Notes under the pieces: model-generated | Databases searched by the model: none | Told to the model about the DNA's origin: nothing | Seen by the model: only the letters and a program-made list of their open reading frames with translations | Made by a program: the position numbers and the translations under genes | Part shown: piece by piece, positions 6,869 to 11,819 of the stretch | How positions within the stretch are numbered: position 1 is the first letter of the stretch | Layout of the letters: every line of letters starts with the position of its first letter | Assembly (NCBI GenBank): GCA_030950365.1 | Contig: JAUZRQ010000028.1 | Location: 1-42,325 of the forward strand | DNA: 42,325 nucleotides | From: Candidatus Zhuqueibacterota bacterium | GTDB taxonomy: Bacteria > Zhuqueibacterota > Zhuqueibacteria > Zhuqueibacterales > Geothermadaptataceae | Reading direction: 5' to 3'

Positions 6869-7180
6869 ATGCCAGTGTATTTAATTTACTTGTTGGTTTT
6901 CTTTGCCATTCCCGTGCTCATACTGGGATGGTGGCGCCGTACCACTTTCCAGCGCTACCGGCGTACATTGCTCTGGTGCCTGGTGTTCGTTCTCACGCTG
7001 GGCGGCTTGTGGGACTGGCTGAGCGTGCGCACCGGCGTGTGGTTTTATGACAGCGCGCCTACGGTGGGCATCTGGTTGGCCGGCCTGCCGGTCGAAGAGT
7101 TCATCGGTTTCTACCTGCTCGGCACCCTACTCTTCTTTCTGACCATCCATGCAATTTTTGACTGGACGAGTCGGTCTTAA
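6869..7180 (+). CDS. Lycopene cyclase domain protein (CrtYc-like half)
   Basis: 103 residues with three predicted membrane helices, the size and layout of one subunit of the heterodimeric lycopene beta-cyclases (CrtYc/CrtYd, CarR). The motif GLPVEEFIGFYLL near residues 72-84 matches the family Pro-x-Glu-Glu signature that carries the functional acidic residues. A GGGAG ribosome site lies upstream. The stop is 12 bp before the next gene, which carries a second cyclase-like domain, so the two halves probably assemble as in split cyclases. No phytoene synthase or desaturase lies in the window, so carotenoid cyclisation is inferred from family only and another polyisoprenoid substrate is possible. 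Confidence 0.8.
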   Translation: MPVYLIYLLVFFAIPVLILGWWRRTTFQRYRRTLLWCLVFVLTLGGLWDWLSVRTGVWFYDSAPTVGIWLAGLPVEEFIGFYLLGTLLFFLTIHAIFDWTSRS

Positions 7181-7192
7181 ACGGAGGGAGCC

Positions 7193-7906
7193 ATGTTCAG
7201 CCACCACAGTTATATCGGTTATACACTGCTGTTCTGCGTGCCGCCGTTGATTCTGATGTGGCTGCGGCGGGAATTTTTTGATATTTTGCGCGGGAAGGTC
7301 AAAGGCATTTTGCTGTCCACCCTGGTGCTTACGGTGTACGGCAGTTTGATCTGGCCGCTGGCGCTGAAATACGGCGCCTGGGGCTACAGCACCGACCGCA
7401 TTACCGGCATCCGACTGCTGGGCTATGTATATGTGGATGATGTGCTCTGGTGGGTTCTGGTCAGCCTGACGTTTGCTTCGTTTATTGCCATCTCGCGCGA
7501 ATACGAATCGCGCGGTATCGATATCGTGCTGCACGAAGCGACCAGCCTGCTGCGCAGTTTCAAAAGCGCCTTTCAGGGATTTCGCGCCATCACGCTCGAA
7601 CGCAATCCGACCGTGCATGTGGCCGTGGCGGTATTTGTCATTCTGGAAGGCATTTTCCTCAACATTTCTGCGGCAGAATGGTTTGTCATCGCTCTGGCCA
7701 TTGGATTGGTTATCGGATTCGAGCTTATGAATGCGGCGGTGGAGCGGTTATCCAACAAATTCGGCGACAATCCGGATGAGGACATCCGGCTGATCAAGGA
7801 TGCCGCGGCGGCGGGGGTGCTCATTGCGGCTTTGGCCGCAGCGGCCATCGGGCTGAAAATTTTCTTTGCACGGATTCTGTATTTCTTAAATCATTCCGGG
7901 CCGTAA
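7193..7906 (+). CDS. Fusion: lycopene cyclase domain (CrtYd-like) + undecaprenol/diacylglycerol kinase (DgkA)
   Basis: 237 residues in one uninterrupted frame with GGAGG upstream. Residues 1-105 form a second lycopene-cyclase-like membrane domain (KYGAWGYSTDRITG typical of these halves), but where the family usually shows Pro-x-Glu-Glu there is YVDDVLWW. Residues 120-230 match the Gram-positive-type DgkA/undecaprenol kinase: LERNPTVH, then FELMNAAVE (the ExxN-x3-E active-site signature), then IKDAAAAGVL and a final helix. The kinase would phosphorylate undecaprenol or diacylglycerol at the inner membrane. The preceding gene supplies the other cyclase half, and a PAP2 phosphatase follows 50 bp downstream. 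The fusion itself is seen directly; its function is not known to me. Confidence 0.85.
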   Translation: MFSHHSYIGYTLLFCVPPLILMWLRREFFDILRGKVKGILLSTLVLTVYGSLIWPLALKYGAWGYSTDRITGIRLLGYVYVDDVLWWVLVSLTFASFIAISREYESRGIDIVLHEATSLLRSFKSAFQGFRAITLERNPTVHVAVAVFVILEGIFLNISAAEWFVIALAIGLVIGFELMNAAVERLSNKFGDNPDEDIRLIKDAAAAGVLIAALAAAAIGLKIFFARILYFLNHSGP

Positions 7907-7956
7907 CCCCGGCCTGACCGGCTGACCGTCACTTAAAACTTGTGGATCCTTTGCCC

Positions 7957-8781
7957 ATGAAACCAATGCTATTGCGCCTCATTCTGATTGCTGTTGCACT
8001 CACCGGTCTCAACGCCGATTGCAGCATTGCTCAGCCGAAACGCGATAAGACCATTCGCGCCTTTAAAGGACTGACCCTGGGCGCGGCTGCCTATGTCAGC
8101 GGCAACATCGCCCGCGAGTGGGCCGGGCCGGATCGCTCTCTGTTTTCAGCACCCATCGGACCGGACCGATTTCTACGCCGCGTGTTCCACCAGCCTGGCA
8201 AAACCACCAACTGGCTGGATGCCAATGGTGTGTACTATTTGATCTTCGGCGGCCTGGTCACCACCGCCGTGGCGCCGATCATCCAGTCTGGCCGTTTCGA
8301 TGCGTTTGATCTCGGATACGATGTGGTGGCCTATTCCAGCGGAATTTTGCTCACTGGCGGCATCACCCGTATCATCAAAGGCATGGTCTCACGGCCGAGG
8401 CCCTACGCCTATTTCGGCACCCGGCCTATTCCCGAGGACACCAGCGAAGCCTATCGCTCGTTTGTGTCCGGCCACGCCAGCATTGCCTTTTACATGGCCA
8501 CGTTTCTGCATTACCGGCTGCGCACTCTCCTGGATTCCGCCTCTTCAACGCAGCGCACGGCCACGGACGTCCTGCTGTTTGGTCTGGCCATCTATACGGC
8601 CTATTCCCGCATGCAAATCGATCAGCACTATTTTACCGATGTGGTCGCCGGCGCGCTGTTGGGTTCAGCCATGGCGCGTCTCACGCACAACTGGTTCTAC
8701 GATGGTGGCCCTCCATCTTCGTCAAATGTCGCGCACATCCGTCCAGGCCTCCGTTTCATCCAGATTTCGATTGCGTTTTAA
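7957..8781 (+). CDS. PAP2-family membrane phosphatase
   Basis: About 274 residues from ATG 7957; an in-frame GTG at 7942 would add five residues, and neither has a clear ribosome site. A signal-like N-terminus (MLLRLILIAVALTG) is followed by membrane helices and the full PAP2 catalytic set: KGMVSRPRP (K-x6-RP), FVSGHAS (the SGH motif) and SRMQIDQHYFTD (SR-x5-H-x3-D). Members dephosphorylate lipid pyrophosphates such as undecaprenyl-PP, or phosphatidates, on the outer face of the inner membrane. Position right after the DgkA fusion suggests a paired kinase/phosphatase acting on polyprenyl carriers. The exact substrate cannot be read from the sequence. Confidence 0.88.
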   Translation: MKPMLLRLILIAVALTGLNADCSIAQPKRDKTIRAFKGLTLGAAAYVSGNIAREWAGPDRSLFSAPIGPDRFLRRVFHQPGKTTNWLDANGVYYLIFGGLVTTAVAPIIQSGRFDAFDLGYDVVAYSSGILLTGGITRIIKGMVSRPRPYAYFGTRPIPEDTSEAYRSFVSGHASIAFYMATFLHYRLRTLLDSASSTQRTATDVLLFGLAIYTAYSRMQIDQHYFTDVVAGALLGSAMARLTHNWFYDGGPPSSSNVAHIRPGLRFIQISIAF

Positions 8782-8874: not shown

Positions 8875-8884
8875 AAGAACAAAC

Positions 8885-9283
8885 ATGAAACAGCTCACTC
8901 AGGCATCCTGCATCCGGCAGGAAGTGGATATCGAAAAGCTGCGGCGATTGAGAACCAGGCTGTTGCAGCGGACGGAACTGGATCATCTGGCCGATTTGCT
9001 GGCCATGGCTGGCAATGCCACACGGCTGAAAATTTTGTATTTGCTGACAGAGAGCCGCGAGCTGTGTGTGTGCGATCTCGCCGATGTCATGGGCATGACC
9101 GTTTCTGCGGTGTCTCATCAGTTGCGCAAGTTGCGTGACCGCAAAGTGATCGTGCAGCGCCGTGAAGGCCCGACGATCTATTACCGGCTGGCTCCGGGGC
9201 CGCTGACGGAAGTGCTCAACTTGCTGTTCCAGAGCGAAGCTCCACGCAAAAAAACAACCGCAATCAAAGAGGTTATGGAATGA
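8885..9283 (+). CDS. ArsR/SmtB-family metal-responsive repressor of the mer operon
   Basis: 132 residues from ATG 8885; a longer frame to 8819 would run through the operator and is rejected. The winged-helix core shows NATRLKILYLL, the ELCVCDLADVM metal-site helix (C61, C63), and the recognition helix SAVSHQLRKLRDRKVI with wing QRREGPTIYYRL. Cys9 may complete the site, as the N-terminal Cys does in CadC. Proteins of this family repress in the apo form and release DNA on metal binding. Its ATGA overlap with merT and the palindrome at its promoter indicate an autoregulated mercury sensor, as in ArsR-type MerR of actinobacterial mer operons, rather than a classical MerR. Confidence 0.93.
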   Translation: MKQLTQASCIRQEVDIEKLRRLRTRLLQRTELDHLADLLAMAGNATRLKILYLLTESRELCVCDLADVMGMTVSAVSHQLRKLRDRKVIVQRREGPTIYYRLAPGPLTEVLNLLFQSEAPRKKTTAIKEVME

Positions 9284-9618
9284 AGAACGCCATCTGGAAT
9301 CTGGGATCGGTCGCTGCCGCCTTTTTTGCATCGGCTTGCTGCATTCTGCCTCTGGTCTTCGCATCGCTGGGGGTGGGCAGCATGGCGTTTGCCACGGCAC
9401 TGGAACCGTACCGCCCTTACTTCATTGGCATCACCGTGGTGTTTCTGGGTTTCGGATTTTATTACACCTATCGGCCGCAGAATCAGGATTGCGAACCTGG
9501 CGAGGACTGCGCCGTGCCATCCCGGTTGCGCTTGCAACGAGCGGCGCTCTGGATCGTAACCGCGCTGACGGCCATCCTGATCGCGTTTCCGTACCTGGTG
9601 CCGTATTTGTTTGATTAA
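9280..9618 (+). CDS. merT: Mercuric ion transporter MerT
   Basis: 112 residues overlapping the repressor gene by four bases (ATGA), so translation is coupled. Three predicted helices are visible. Helix 1 holds the Cys pair SACCILP (C20, C21) that takes Hg(II) from MerP, and the cytoplasmic loop has a second pair, C71 and C77, with the six-residue spacing of MerT C76/C82. The stretch YRPYFIGITVVFLGFGFYYTYR is characteristic. It carries Hg(II) across the inner membrane to MerA. Length and topology are normal. Confidence 0.95.
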   Translation: MKNAIWNLGSVAAAFFASACCILPLVFASLGVGSMAFATALEPYRPYFIGITVVFLGFGFYYTYRPQNQDCEPGEDCAVPSRLRLQRAALWIVTALTAILIAFPYLVPYLFD

Positions 9619-9715
9619 TCTTAGCATGCTGGAACCCTGCTTCTGCAACCGTCGGAAGCGGGCATGACAAAAAACGGATGGTTAAACAGGCATCAATACA
9701 AAAGGAGGCAGAACC

Positions 9716-10069
9716 ATGAAAAACAAATGGTTACTCGGACTCAGTGTAGTCGCTCTCTCCGCGACATTTTTGACCTTCGGAATCAATGGCTGCAGCGAGA
9801 AGAAGACCGATGCGCCGAAAGCGCAGGCCAAAGCCACGGCTGGCCCCACCAAAGTGGTGGCGCTGGAAGTCGATGGCATGACCTGCAACAGTTGCGAGGT
9901 GGCCTTGAAGACGACGCTCAAGAAACTCGATGGCGTCAAGGCGGTTGAAGCGAGCTATAAAGAAAACCGGGCTGTGGTGACTGTGAACCCGGAAAAAGTC
10001 GCTGATGAGCAAATCGTCGCGGCCATTAGCAAGCTGGGATATACGGCCAAAATCAAATCAGACAACTGA
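9716..10069 (+). CDS. merP: Periplasmic mercury-binding protein MerP
   Basis: 117 residues with a good AAAGGAGG site before ATG 9716. A signal sequence is followed by Cys26 in the context INGC, so it may be a lipoprotein, although the lipobox is not canonical. An Ala/Lys linker leads to one HMA ferredoxin-like domain with GMTCNSC (C57, C60), which binds Hg(II) and hands it to MerT. The 97-bp gap after merT is slightly long but the strand and context fit one operon. Classical MerP is shorter (about 91 residues); the extra length is the linker. Confidence 0.93.
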   Translation: MKNKWLLGLSVVALSATFLTFGINGCSEKKTDAPKAQAKATAGPTKVVALEVDGMTCNSCEVALKTTLKKLDGVKAVEASYKENRAVVTVNPEKVADEQIVAAISKLGYTAKIKSDN

Positions 10070-10110
10070 GATCGTTTCCTACTGGGCTATTTAAACAGGA
10101 GTCATCTGCA

Positions 10111-10374
10111 ATGAAATGGTTCAAATCAAAAAAAGATCAGGCAGGCAGCGAGGCCGGCGTCATTGAGCTTGAGATCACAGGCATGTCGTGCGATGGATGC
10201 GCGAACCATGTGCGCCAGGCGCTTTCGGCCGTGGAAGGCGTGACCGAAGTGGATGTGCCCTCCTGGAAAGAGGGCCGGGCCATGGTGCGCACCTCCGCGC
10301 CAGTCGGAGATGCGGTTTTAGTGGCTGCAGTGGAACAGGCTGGATATCAGGCGCGGATCAAAAAAAAAGCCTGA
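10111..10374 (+). CDS. HMA domain (NmerA-like), frame-separated N-terminal part of MerA
   Basis: 87 residues, one heavy-metal-associated domain with GMSCDGC (C27, C30) and no signal peptide, hence cytoplasmic. In most proteobacterial MerA proteins this NmerA domain is fused to the reductase. Here it ends IKKKA-stop at 10374, directly at a run of nine A (10360-10368), and the reductase continues in the -1 frame without any gap. It can be read either as a separate small Hg chaperone or as the first half of a frameshifted merA. Spacing from merP is 41 bp, with AACAGGAG upstream. Confidence 0.85.
   Translation: MKWFKSKKDQAGSEAGVIELEITGMSCDGCANHVRQALSAVEGVTEVDVPSWKEGRAMVRTSAPVGDAVLVAAVEQAGYQARIKKKA
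10360..10368 (+). other. A9 homopolymer: candidate slippage site joining HMA domain to MerA
   Basis: In the HMA frame the run reads AAA AAA AAA GCC TGA. A -1 ribosomal shift, or one extra A made by transcriptional slippage, gives AAA AAA AAA AGC CTG and continues straight into the reductase. The motif A-AAA-AAA is a known slippery type. A sequencing or assembly error in the homopolymer would look the same. Confidence 0.6.
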
Positions 10375-11819
10375 ATCCCACTGATTTTCCGGCCTCCCGA
10401 AACGGCAGCGAATTCGACCTGATCGTGATCGGCACCGGCGGGGGCGGAACGGCGGCGGCCATTCGAGCGGCTGAGCTGGGCTACCGGGTGGCCATCATTG
10501 AAGCCGGCACCATTGGCGGCACCTGCGTCAACATCGGCTGTATTCCATCCAAAGCCATTATCCGGGCGGCCAAAGCCTACCACACCGCCGGGCACCATCC
10601 GTTCGCCGGCCTGCGTACCCGTGCCGAGGGGGTGGACTGGCCGCAACTCATTTCTCAAAAAGATCATCTCGTGGCGGAACTGCGCCAGCAAAAATACATC
10701 GACATTCTGCAATCCTACGATACCATCACCCTGATTCAGGGCCATGGCCGCTTCAATAGCCGCGGCGAAGTGGTCATCGACCAAAACCGCGTGCTGCGCG
10801 GCGACCGGGTGATCATCGCCACGGGGGCGCAGCCCAAAATACTGCCCATCGATGGCATCGACCAGGTGCGGGTGCTGAACAGCACCACACTAATGGCGCT
10901 GGAACGCCAGCCGGAATCGCTGCTGGTGATCGGAGGTCGGGCGATTGCCCTGGAGCTGGGGCAAGCCATGGCCCGACTGGGAACCCGCGTGACCATCCTG
11001 CAGCGCAGCTCCCGCCTCCTGCCCGAGCACGACCCTGAAATCAGTCGCGGCATTCAAGAAGCTTTGGAAAACGAGGGAATCGAGGTGGTGACCGGTGCGG
11101 TGCCGGAAAAGATCTGCGAAATCGACGGCCAAAAAGAAGTGACCGCGCGCGTGAATGGCAGCTCCCGCAAGTTTCACGCCGAAGGCGTACTGATGGCGGT
11201 AGGCCGCGTTCCCAATACCGACAATCTTGGCCTTGAGGAAATCGGTGTTACCACCGACGCCAACGGGTTCATTCTGGTCGATGCGTTTCTGCGCACCAAC
11301 CGCTCCGGCGTGTTTGCCGTTGGTGACGTCACCCGGCTGCCCAAGCTGGTGTATGTGGCCGCCGCCGCGGGCACGCTGGCAGCCGAAAATGCGTTAACGC
11401 AGGCACAACGCCAACTGGATCTGAATGTACTGCCGGAAGTCATCTTCACCGATCCGCAAATTGCGACCGTAGGCATGACCGAGCAACAGGCTCGGGAAGC
11501 CGGCCACTCCGTTAAAGTGGCGCATTTGCCGCTGGAGCATGTGCCGCGCGCGCTCACCGAGCAGGATCGCCGCGGGTTCATCCGGCTCATTGCCGATGCT
11601 GACCACAACACGTTGTTGGGCGCCCATATTCTGGCTGCGGAAGCCGGAGAGATCATCCAGACTGCAGCGCTGGCCATGGAGTTCGGCCGCCGCCATGGCT
11701 ACACGGTGGATGAATTGCGCAGCATGCTGTTTCCCTATTTGACCCAAGTCGAAGGCATCAAATTGGCGGCGCAGACATTTGACAAGGATGTGGCGAAGCT
11801 GTCCTGCTGCGCGGGATAG
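10371..11819 (+). CDS. merA: Mercuric reductase MerA, flavoprotein disulfide reductase part
   Basis: The frame encodes EFDLIVIGTGGGGTAAAIRAAE (FAD-binding GxGxxG), the redox-active GGTCVNIGCIPSK, a central NADPH-binding region (VIGGRAIALELGQAMARLG), a second FAD motif (VFAVGDVTRLP), the C-terminal dimer interface and the terminal Cys pair LSCCAG that passes Hg(II) to the active site. It reduces Hg(II) to Hg(0) with NADPH. There is no ATG near the correct N-terminus. Upstream in this frame only CTG (10371) overlaps the HMA stop as CTGA, and an upstream ATG at 10188 would translate the HMA region out of frame. Production is therefore likely by frameshift from 10111 or by rare-codon coupled initiation. 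Confidence 0.93.
   Translation: MNPTDFPASRNGSEFDLIVIGTGGGGTAAAIRAAELGYRVAIIEAGTIGGTCVNIGCIPSKAIIRAAKAYHTAGHHPFAGLRTRAEGVDWPQLISQKDHLVAELRQQKYIDILQSYDTITLIQGHGRFNSRGEVVIDQNRVLRGDRVIIATGAQPKILPIDGIDQVRVLNSTTLMALERQPESLLVIGGRAIALELGQAMARLGTRVTILQRSSRLLPEHDPEISRGIQEALENEGIEVVTGAVPEKICEIDGQKEVTARVNGSSRKFHAEGVLMAVGRVPNTDNLGLEEIGVTTDANGFILVDAFLRTNRSGVFAVGDVTRLPKLVYVAAAAGTLAAENALTQAQRQLDLNVLPEVIFTDPQIATVGMTEQQAREAGHSVKVAHLPLEHVPRALTEQDRRGFIRLIADADHNTLLGAHILAAEAGEIIQTAALAMEFGRRHGYTVDELRSMLFPYLTQVEGIKLAAQTFDKDVAKLSCCAG

Follow-up and report, generated by a model that had tools for sequence, protein, structure and literature searches.

INTRODUCTION

Lycopene cyclases of the CrtYc/CrtYd type, along with the CrtYe/f and LitA/B proteins, are heterodimers of two three-helix halves encoded by adjacent genes, and in the single-chain CrtYcd enzymes a fourth helix links the two halves. 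CrtYcd is also found within the CarRA, CarRP, CrtYB, and CrtIBY fusions, in which one carotenoid enzyme is joined to another (PMC2889829, PMC10016063); its partners there are phytoene synthase, desaturase, or enzymes of beta-carotene cleavage. Here we describe a locus in which a cyclase-family membrane domain is likewise fused to another isoprenoid-lipid enzyme, but in this case the enzyme is a lipid kinase and the fusion contains only half a cyclase. As in the CrtYc/CrtYd systems, two three-helix halves are encoded by adjacent genes, and the protein encoded by the upstream gene (the partner) passes the family profiles PF18916 and TIGR03462 and keeps the W-D and P-x-E-E motifs. It differs from those systems in that its second half, a divergent one, is joined to the kinase, and in that the genomes carrying it have no phytoene synthase that we could find and no CrtI above its cut-off; the pair also lacks the fourth helix that links the halves of CrtYcd. 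The kinase resembles the DgkA/undecaprenol kinase family (PF01219) in its complete domain, its DgkA fold, its E-x-x-N-x-x-x-E and K-D motifs, its presence as the sole copy in the genome, and its PAP2 neighbor, but differs in having a 106-residue N-terminal membrane domain and in the replacement of the equivalent of Asp80.

The first-pass annotation of this DNA knew of no described protein with this fusion, and we too found no published description of a half-cyclase-kinase fusion. What is new is an arrangement of known parts, and it is of interest because the data point to a use of the cyclase fold outside carotenoid synthesis. Annotation of the lycopene-cyclase domain family follows its role with carotenoids, and a half-cyclase-kinase module that is conserved in genomes without phytoene synthase suggests another job for the fold. 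The fused kinase hints that this job may be to handle a lipid alcohol, be it a polyisoprenoid or some other one.

RESULTS

The window analyzed here is the whole 42,325-nucleotide stretch of contig JAUZRQ010000028.1 (assembly GCA_030950365.1, Zhuqueibacterota); its genome is designated G000 and that of a congener G073. The fusion gene lies at positions 7193 to 7906 on the forward strand and is an open frame encoding 237 aa, with a GGAGGGA ribosome-binding site (7183 to 7189, forward strand) 3 bases 5' of its ATG. It was present in 4 of the 82 genomes of the phylum, spread over two classes: G000, G073, and two genomes outside the class of the window (G005 and G006), all with the same layout. Identity to the fusion protein of the window was 84% in the congener and 61% and 57 to 58% in the two out-of-class genomes. 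Since the same uninterrupted fusion recurs in three further genomes, a chance fusion, a frameshift, or an assembly artefact is very unlikely, and the single frame proposed in the first-pass annotation was borne out. No homologues were found on plasmids or viral contigs. A search with PADLOC gave no match, and an antiphage role was set aside. The AlphaFold model of the 237-aa protein had a mean pLDDT of 79 and a pTM of 0.51.

The partner gene was found directly upstream of the fusion gene in all four carriers, giving the same [half-cyclase][half-cyclase–kinase] gene order in each. In the window it spans 6869 to 7180 on the forward strand and encodes a CrtYc-like half-cyclase of 103 aa with three predicted membrane helices. 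The gap of 12 bases between the two genes contains the ribosome-binding site of the fusion gene, and in G005 and G006 the two genes overlap by 8 bases. The partner passed both PF18916 (E = 1.1e-7, 32.8 bits, cut-off 27) and TIGR03462 (4.7e-14, 52.7 bits, cut-off 39.4). When aligned by hhalign with the first half of the canonical CrtYcd of the phylum, it gave a probability of 94.7% and an E value of 6e-8, a score reached by none of 200 shuffles. It keeps W48-D49 and G72-LPVEE77, and the W-D...GxW...P-x-E-E signature of catalytic halves, including L/I-P-x-E-E, is kept by the partner in all four genomes.

The N-terminal half of the fusion (residues 1 to 106; 7193 to 7510, forward strand) has predicted helices at residues 6 to 23, 26 to 34, 36 to 59, and 73 to 106 and falls below the cut-offs of both families, whereas the partner lies above both. 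The first-pass annotation had described residues 1 to 105 as a CrtYd-like domain and had named the lack of a PF18916 hit there as refuting it. PF18916 indeed gave no match to these residues, even at E<=1; it was TIGR03462 and profile comparison that succeeded instead. TIGR03462 matched residues 6 to 95 (E = 9.5e-6, 26.1 bits, under the cut-off of 39.4) and matched the three other fusions with E values of 1.6e-5, 2.4e-5, and 1.2e-3. By BLASTP, the fused half was 34% identical to the partner over 89 aa (39.3 bits). Alignment of the fused half to the partner by hhalign gave a probability of 86 to 90% and a score of 36.1, compared to a maximum of 22.4 for 200 column shuffles and at most about 17 for five unrelated membrane proteins. 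Because of the TIGR03462 match and a profile alignment to the partner well above the controls, we take the N-terminal domain to be one half, albeit a divergent one, of a lycopene cyclase of the CrtYc/CrtYd type, the two halves of the pair being homologous to each other and to the halves of canonical CrtYcd. The kinship to a half-cyclase thus stood, but the CrtYd label did not: the second half of canonical CrtYcd is not a closer match to the fused domain than the first half is, and its assignment to CrtYd rather than CrtYc, for which gene order is the sole ground, is not established. In place of the P-x-E-E/D of canonical halves, an invariant D82-D83 is found in the fused half (V-x-x-D-D, with Pro absent).

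The first loops of both halves are rich in positive residues, and the sequences suggest that both halves are N-out/C-in, as are those of CrtYcd; this would place the N terminus of the kinase in the cytoplasm, as in DgkA. A tandem model of the two halves, for which the stop codon was read as Q for modeling only in order to join the chains, was too weak to use (pTM 0.60, pLDDT 73), and a fold search with this weak model gave no PDB match. A first tandem alignment was left out, the fused half there having fallen on the linker-helix region of CrtYcd.

The kinase domain of the fusion (residues 107 to 237; 7511 to 7903, forward strand) was matched by PF01219 at residues 125 to 224 (E = 1.3e-22, 80 bits, cut-off 22.3) over positions 2 to 102 of the 102 in the profile, and its best structural matches by Foldseek were the crystal structures of E. 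coli DgkA (TMt 0.85 to 0.87, probability 1.00, rmsd 1.6 to 1.9). This agrees with the earlier description of a complete DgkA-type kinase with ExxNxxxE and KD motifs. No second PF01219 gene was found in any of the four carriers, leaving the fused protein as their sole DgkA-type kinase. It has an ERNxxxH motif, which we take to resemble that of Gram-positive undecaprenol kinases. Glu28 of E. coli DgkA is a metal ligand, and in most of the stand-alone PF01219 kinases of the phylum the corresponding position is Gln (loci L011 to L022).

The catalytic residues were compared in an alignment of 20 kinases, 16 of them stand-alone and 4 of them fusions. The catalytic and metal-binding motif E177-LMN180-AAVE184 (7721 to 7744, forward strand) corresponds to E69, N72, and E76 of E. 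coli DgkA, and E177, N180, and E184 are invariant in the alignment, as is K202 of the K202-D203 pair (7796 to 7801, forward strand; E. coli K94-D95), with D203 nearly so. Together with E136, the fusion thus keeps six of the seven E. coli catalytic residues (the equivalents of E28, E69, N72, E76, K94, and D95). The seventh, Asp80, is lost: its position, occupied in the window by N188 (7754 to 7756, forward strand), is N, N, A, and S in the four fusions and D in all 16 stand-alone kinases. In E. coli DgkA, Asp80 holds Lys94, and a D80A mutant was reported to be inactive (PMC4703834). With this residue missing from all four fusions, the fused kinase may be weak or altered; retention of kinase activity is likely but not assured.

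Between the congeners, dN/dS was 0.13 for the partner, 0.19 for the N-terminal domain of the fusion, and 0.07 for the kinase; the partner and both halves of the fusion are under purifying selection. Across classes, the N-terminal domain was 63 to 64% identical, compared to 52 to 57% for residues 107 to 190 of the kinase half. That the cyclase-like half is better kept than these kinase residues argues against a passive tether and makes it probable that the N-terminal domain does something specific. The fused kinases form one clade with a support of 100, their nearest relatives being the stand-alone kinases of one family (f3). Their monophyly fits a single fusion event followed by transfer or loss.

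The fusion gene is followed at 7942 to 8781 on the forward strand by a gene for a PAP2-family lipid phosphatase (PF01569, E = 3.7e-25; an alternative ATG lies at 7957), which is probably third in the operon and whose orthologue occupies the same place in G073. PAP2 thus adjoins the fusion in two of the four carriers. Five stand-alone kinases of the phylum likewise have a PAP2 gene beside them, a pattern suggesting that a plain kinase in a kinase-phosphatase gene pair was replaced by the fusion. The linkage is absent at the loci of G005 and G006. There, a winged-helix regulator (PF13601) and a membrane protein of 200 aa precede the half-cyclase pair (L055:11032-12052 and L056:3808-4826); the membrane protein gave only a very weak match to UbiA (E = 0.022). 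In the window, a mercury-resistance cluster lies directly downstream (8879 to 11819) and encodes an ArsR-type regulator, a MerT-like protein, two metal-binding proteins, and mercuric reductase (MerA, E = 4.5e-165).

The four carriers were searched for enzymes that could supply lycopene. No SQS_PSY enzyme was detected in G000 (95% complete) or in its congener (91%). G005 and G006 each have two SQS_PSY genes whose best matches are HpnC and HpnD, adjacent to HpnE, which points to a squalene pathway; the HpnD of G005 scores just under its cut-off. No phytoene synthase was found in the four carriers, and none of them has CrtI above the cut-off, whereas the same profile scored above it in both carotenogenic genomes of the phylum that were tested. 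Carotenogenic genomes of the phylum have an ordinary CrtYcd of roughly 220 to 255 residues, often near phytoene synthase. Since the carriers lack phytoene synthase and CrtI above the cut-off, the module very probably does not act on lycopene, and the same absences disfavor the earlier suggestion that a carotenoid-like lipid is phosphorylated.

DISCUSSION

The explanation that we tentatively favor, with a probability of about 0.42, is that the fusion is a lipid kinase with a repurposed two-part isoprenoid-binding module and acts on a polyprenol, most likely of the undecaprenol type. The partner and the fusion would form one membrane complex, in which the 103-aa half-cyclase and the fused half would pair like the two halves of canonical CrtYcd, making a module of six helices that binds isoprenoids, is anchored to a DgkA-type kinase, and has lost its lycopene role. 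This module would capture an alcohol of the polyisoprenoid class, with undecaprenol or a similar polyprenol as the most likely one, and would bind it rather than catalyze, so that its hydroxyl would be offered to the kinase on the cytoplasmic side of the membrane. The kinase would then make the phosphate, which in the genus of the window would be removed again by the PAP2 enzyme, whose gene appears to lie in the same operon. Undecaprenol is a first guess at the substrate, made from the type of kinase and the PAP2 neighbor; the preference for it over diacylglycerol comes from the resemblance of the ERNxxxH motif. The first-pass suggestion that the cyclase-like half may bind the polyprenyl chain to be phosphorylated is consistent with every result above.

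The pair of halves might instead still be a cyclase that protonates and cyclizes the omega end of a polyprenyl lipid while the kinase phosphorylates the alcohol end, yielding a ring-ended polyprenyl phosphate. The catalytic signature kept by all four partners, the invariant Asp-Asp at about the corresponding place in the fusion, and the better conservation of the cyclase-like half across classes are what such an enzyme would show, but the fused half has no Pro, has Asp-Asp in place of Glu-Glu/Asp, and has diverged too far to be matched by PF18916, and no precursor pathway specific to a ring-ended polyprenyl phosphate was found. We know of no such lipid. We regard this explanation as unlikely; cyclization by the module is less likely than binding, though live. 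Its boldest form, a two-subunit cyclase-kinase that puts a ring at one polyprenyl end and a phosphate at the other and so provides bacteria that make no carotenoids with a lipid carrier of a kind not seen before, is doubtful.

It is also unlikely that the protein is an ordinary diacylglycerol kinase, or one with broad activity on lipid alcohols, that the half-cyclase pair merely anchors or stabilizes. The PF01219 family takes in diacylglycerol kinases, PAP2 enzymes also act on phosphatidic acid, and E. coli DgkA is the best structural match to the kinase domain. A pure anchor should drift, however, whereas this domain and its separate partner are under purifying selection and have stayed together in two classes; moreover, kinases of the PF01219 family require no extra anchor.

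Even less probable, in our estimate, is a kinase half that is dead or weak and serves as a lipid sensor or binding subunit controlling something else. The replacement of Asp in all four fusions at a position where it is kept by every stand-alone kinase aligned, the loss of activity of E. coli D80A (PMC4703834), and the winged-helix regulator directly upstream in G005 and G006 are what would be expected of such a subunit. They are countered by the strong constraint on the kinase half (dN/dS 0.07), by its retention of the other metal- and ATP-binding residues, and by its standing as the only PF01219 kinase of its carriers, while most stand-alone kinases, which are presumably active, deviate too, with Q at the Glu28 position.

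That the N-terminal half is an unrelated three-helix membrane extension with no cyclase kinship, as the missing PF18916 match and the TIGR03462 score under its cut-off might imply, is very improbable given the TIGR03462 E value of 9.5e-6, the matches in the three other fusions, the BLASTP alignment to the partner, and an hhalign score well above those of shuffles and of unrelated membrane proteins.

The module would offer a concrete case for testing what proteins annotated as "lycopene cyclase domain-containing" do where a genome has no carotenoid genes. Among such proteins is a second CrtYcd-like family, seen in this phylum. The members of this second family are 231 to 274 aa long, have the signature TEPxFVPxYWxPPS and P-I/V/A-E-E, and are encoded at L063:11446-12141, L064:6952-7692, L065:7070-7780, L062:7078-7791, L067:18-743, and L058:2307-3131. 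No carotenoid genes were seen adjoining them, and neither a phytoene nor a squalene synthase was detected in one carrier genome (G059, with L062); in two others (G002 and G003) the gene is near a P-type metal ATPase. In a further genome (G009), two adjacent genes at L059:5778-7346 encode a PF04240 (CruF-like carotenoid biosynthesis) protein and a CrtYcd-like protein on a contig with no phytoene synthase detected; an ordinary carotenoid locus (L060) is present elsewhere in that genome.
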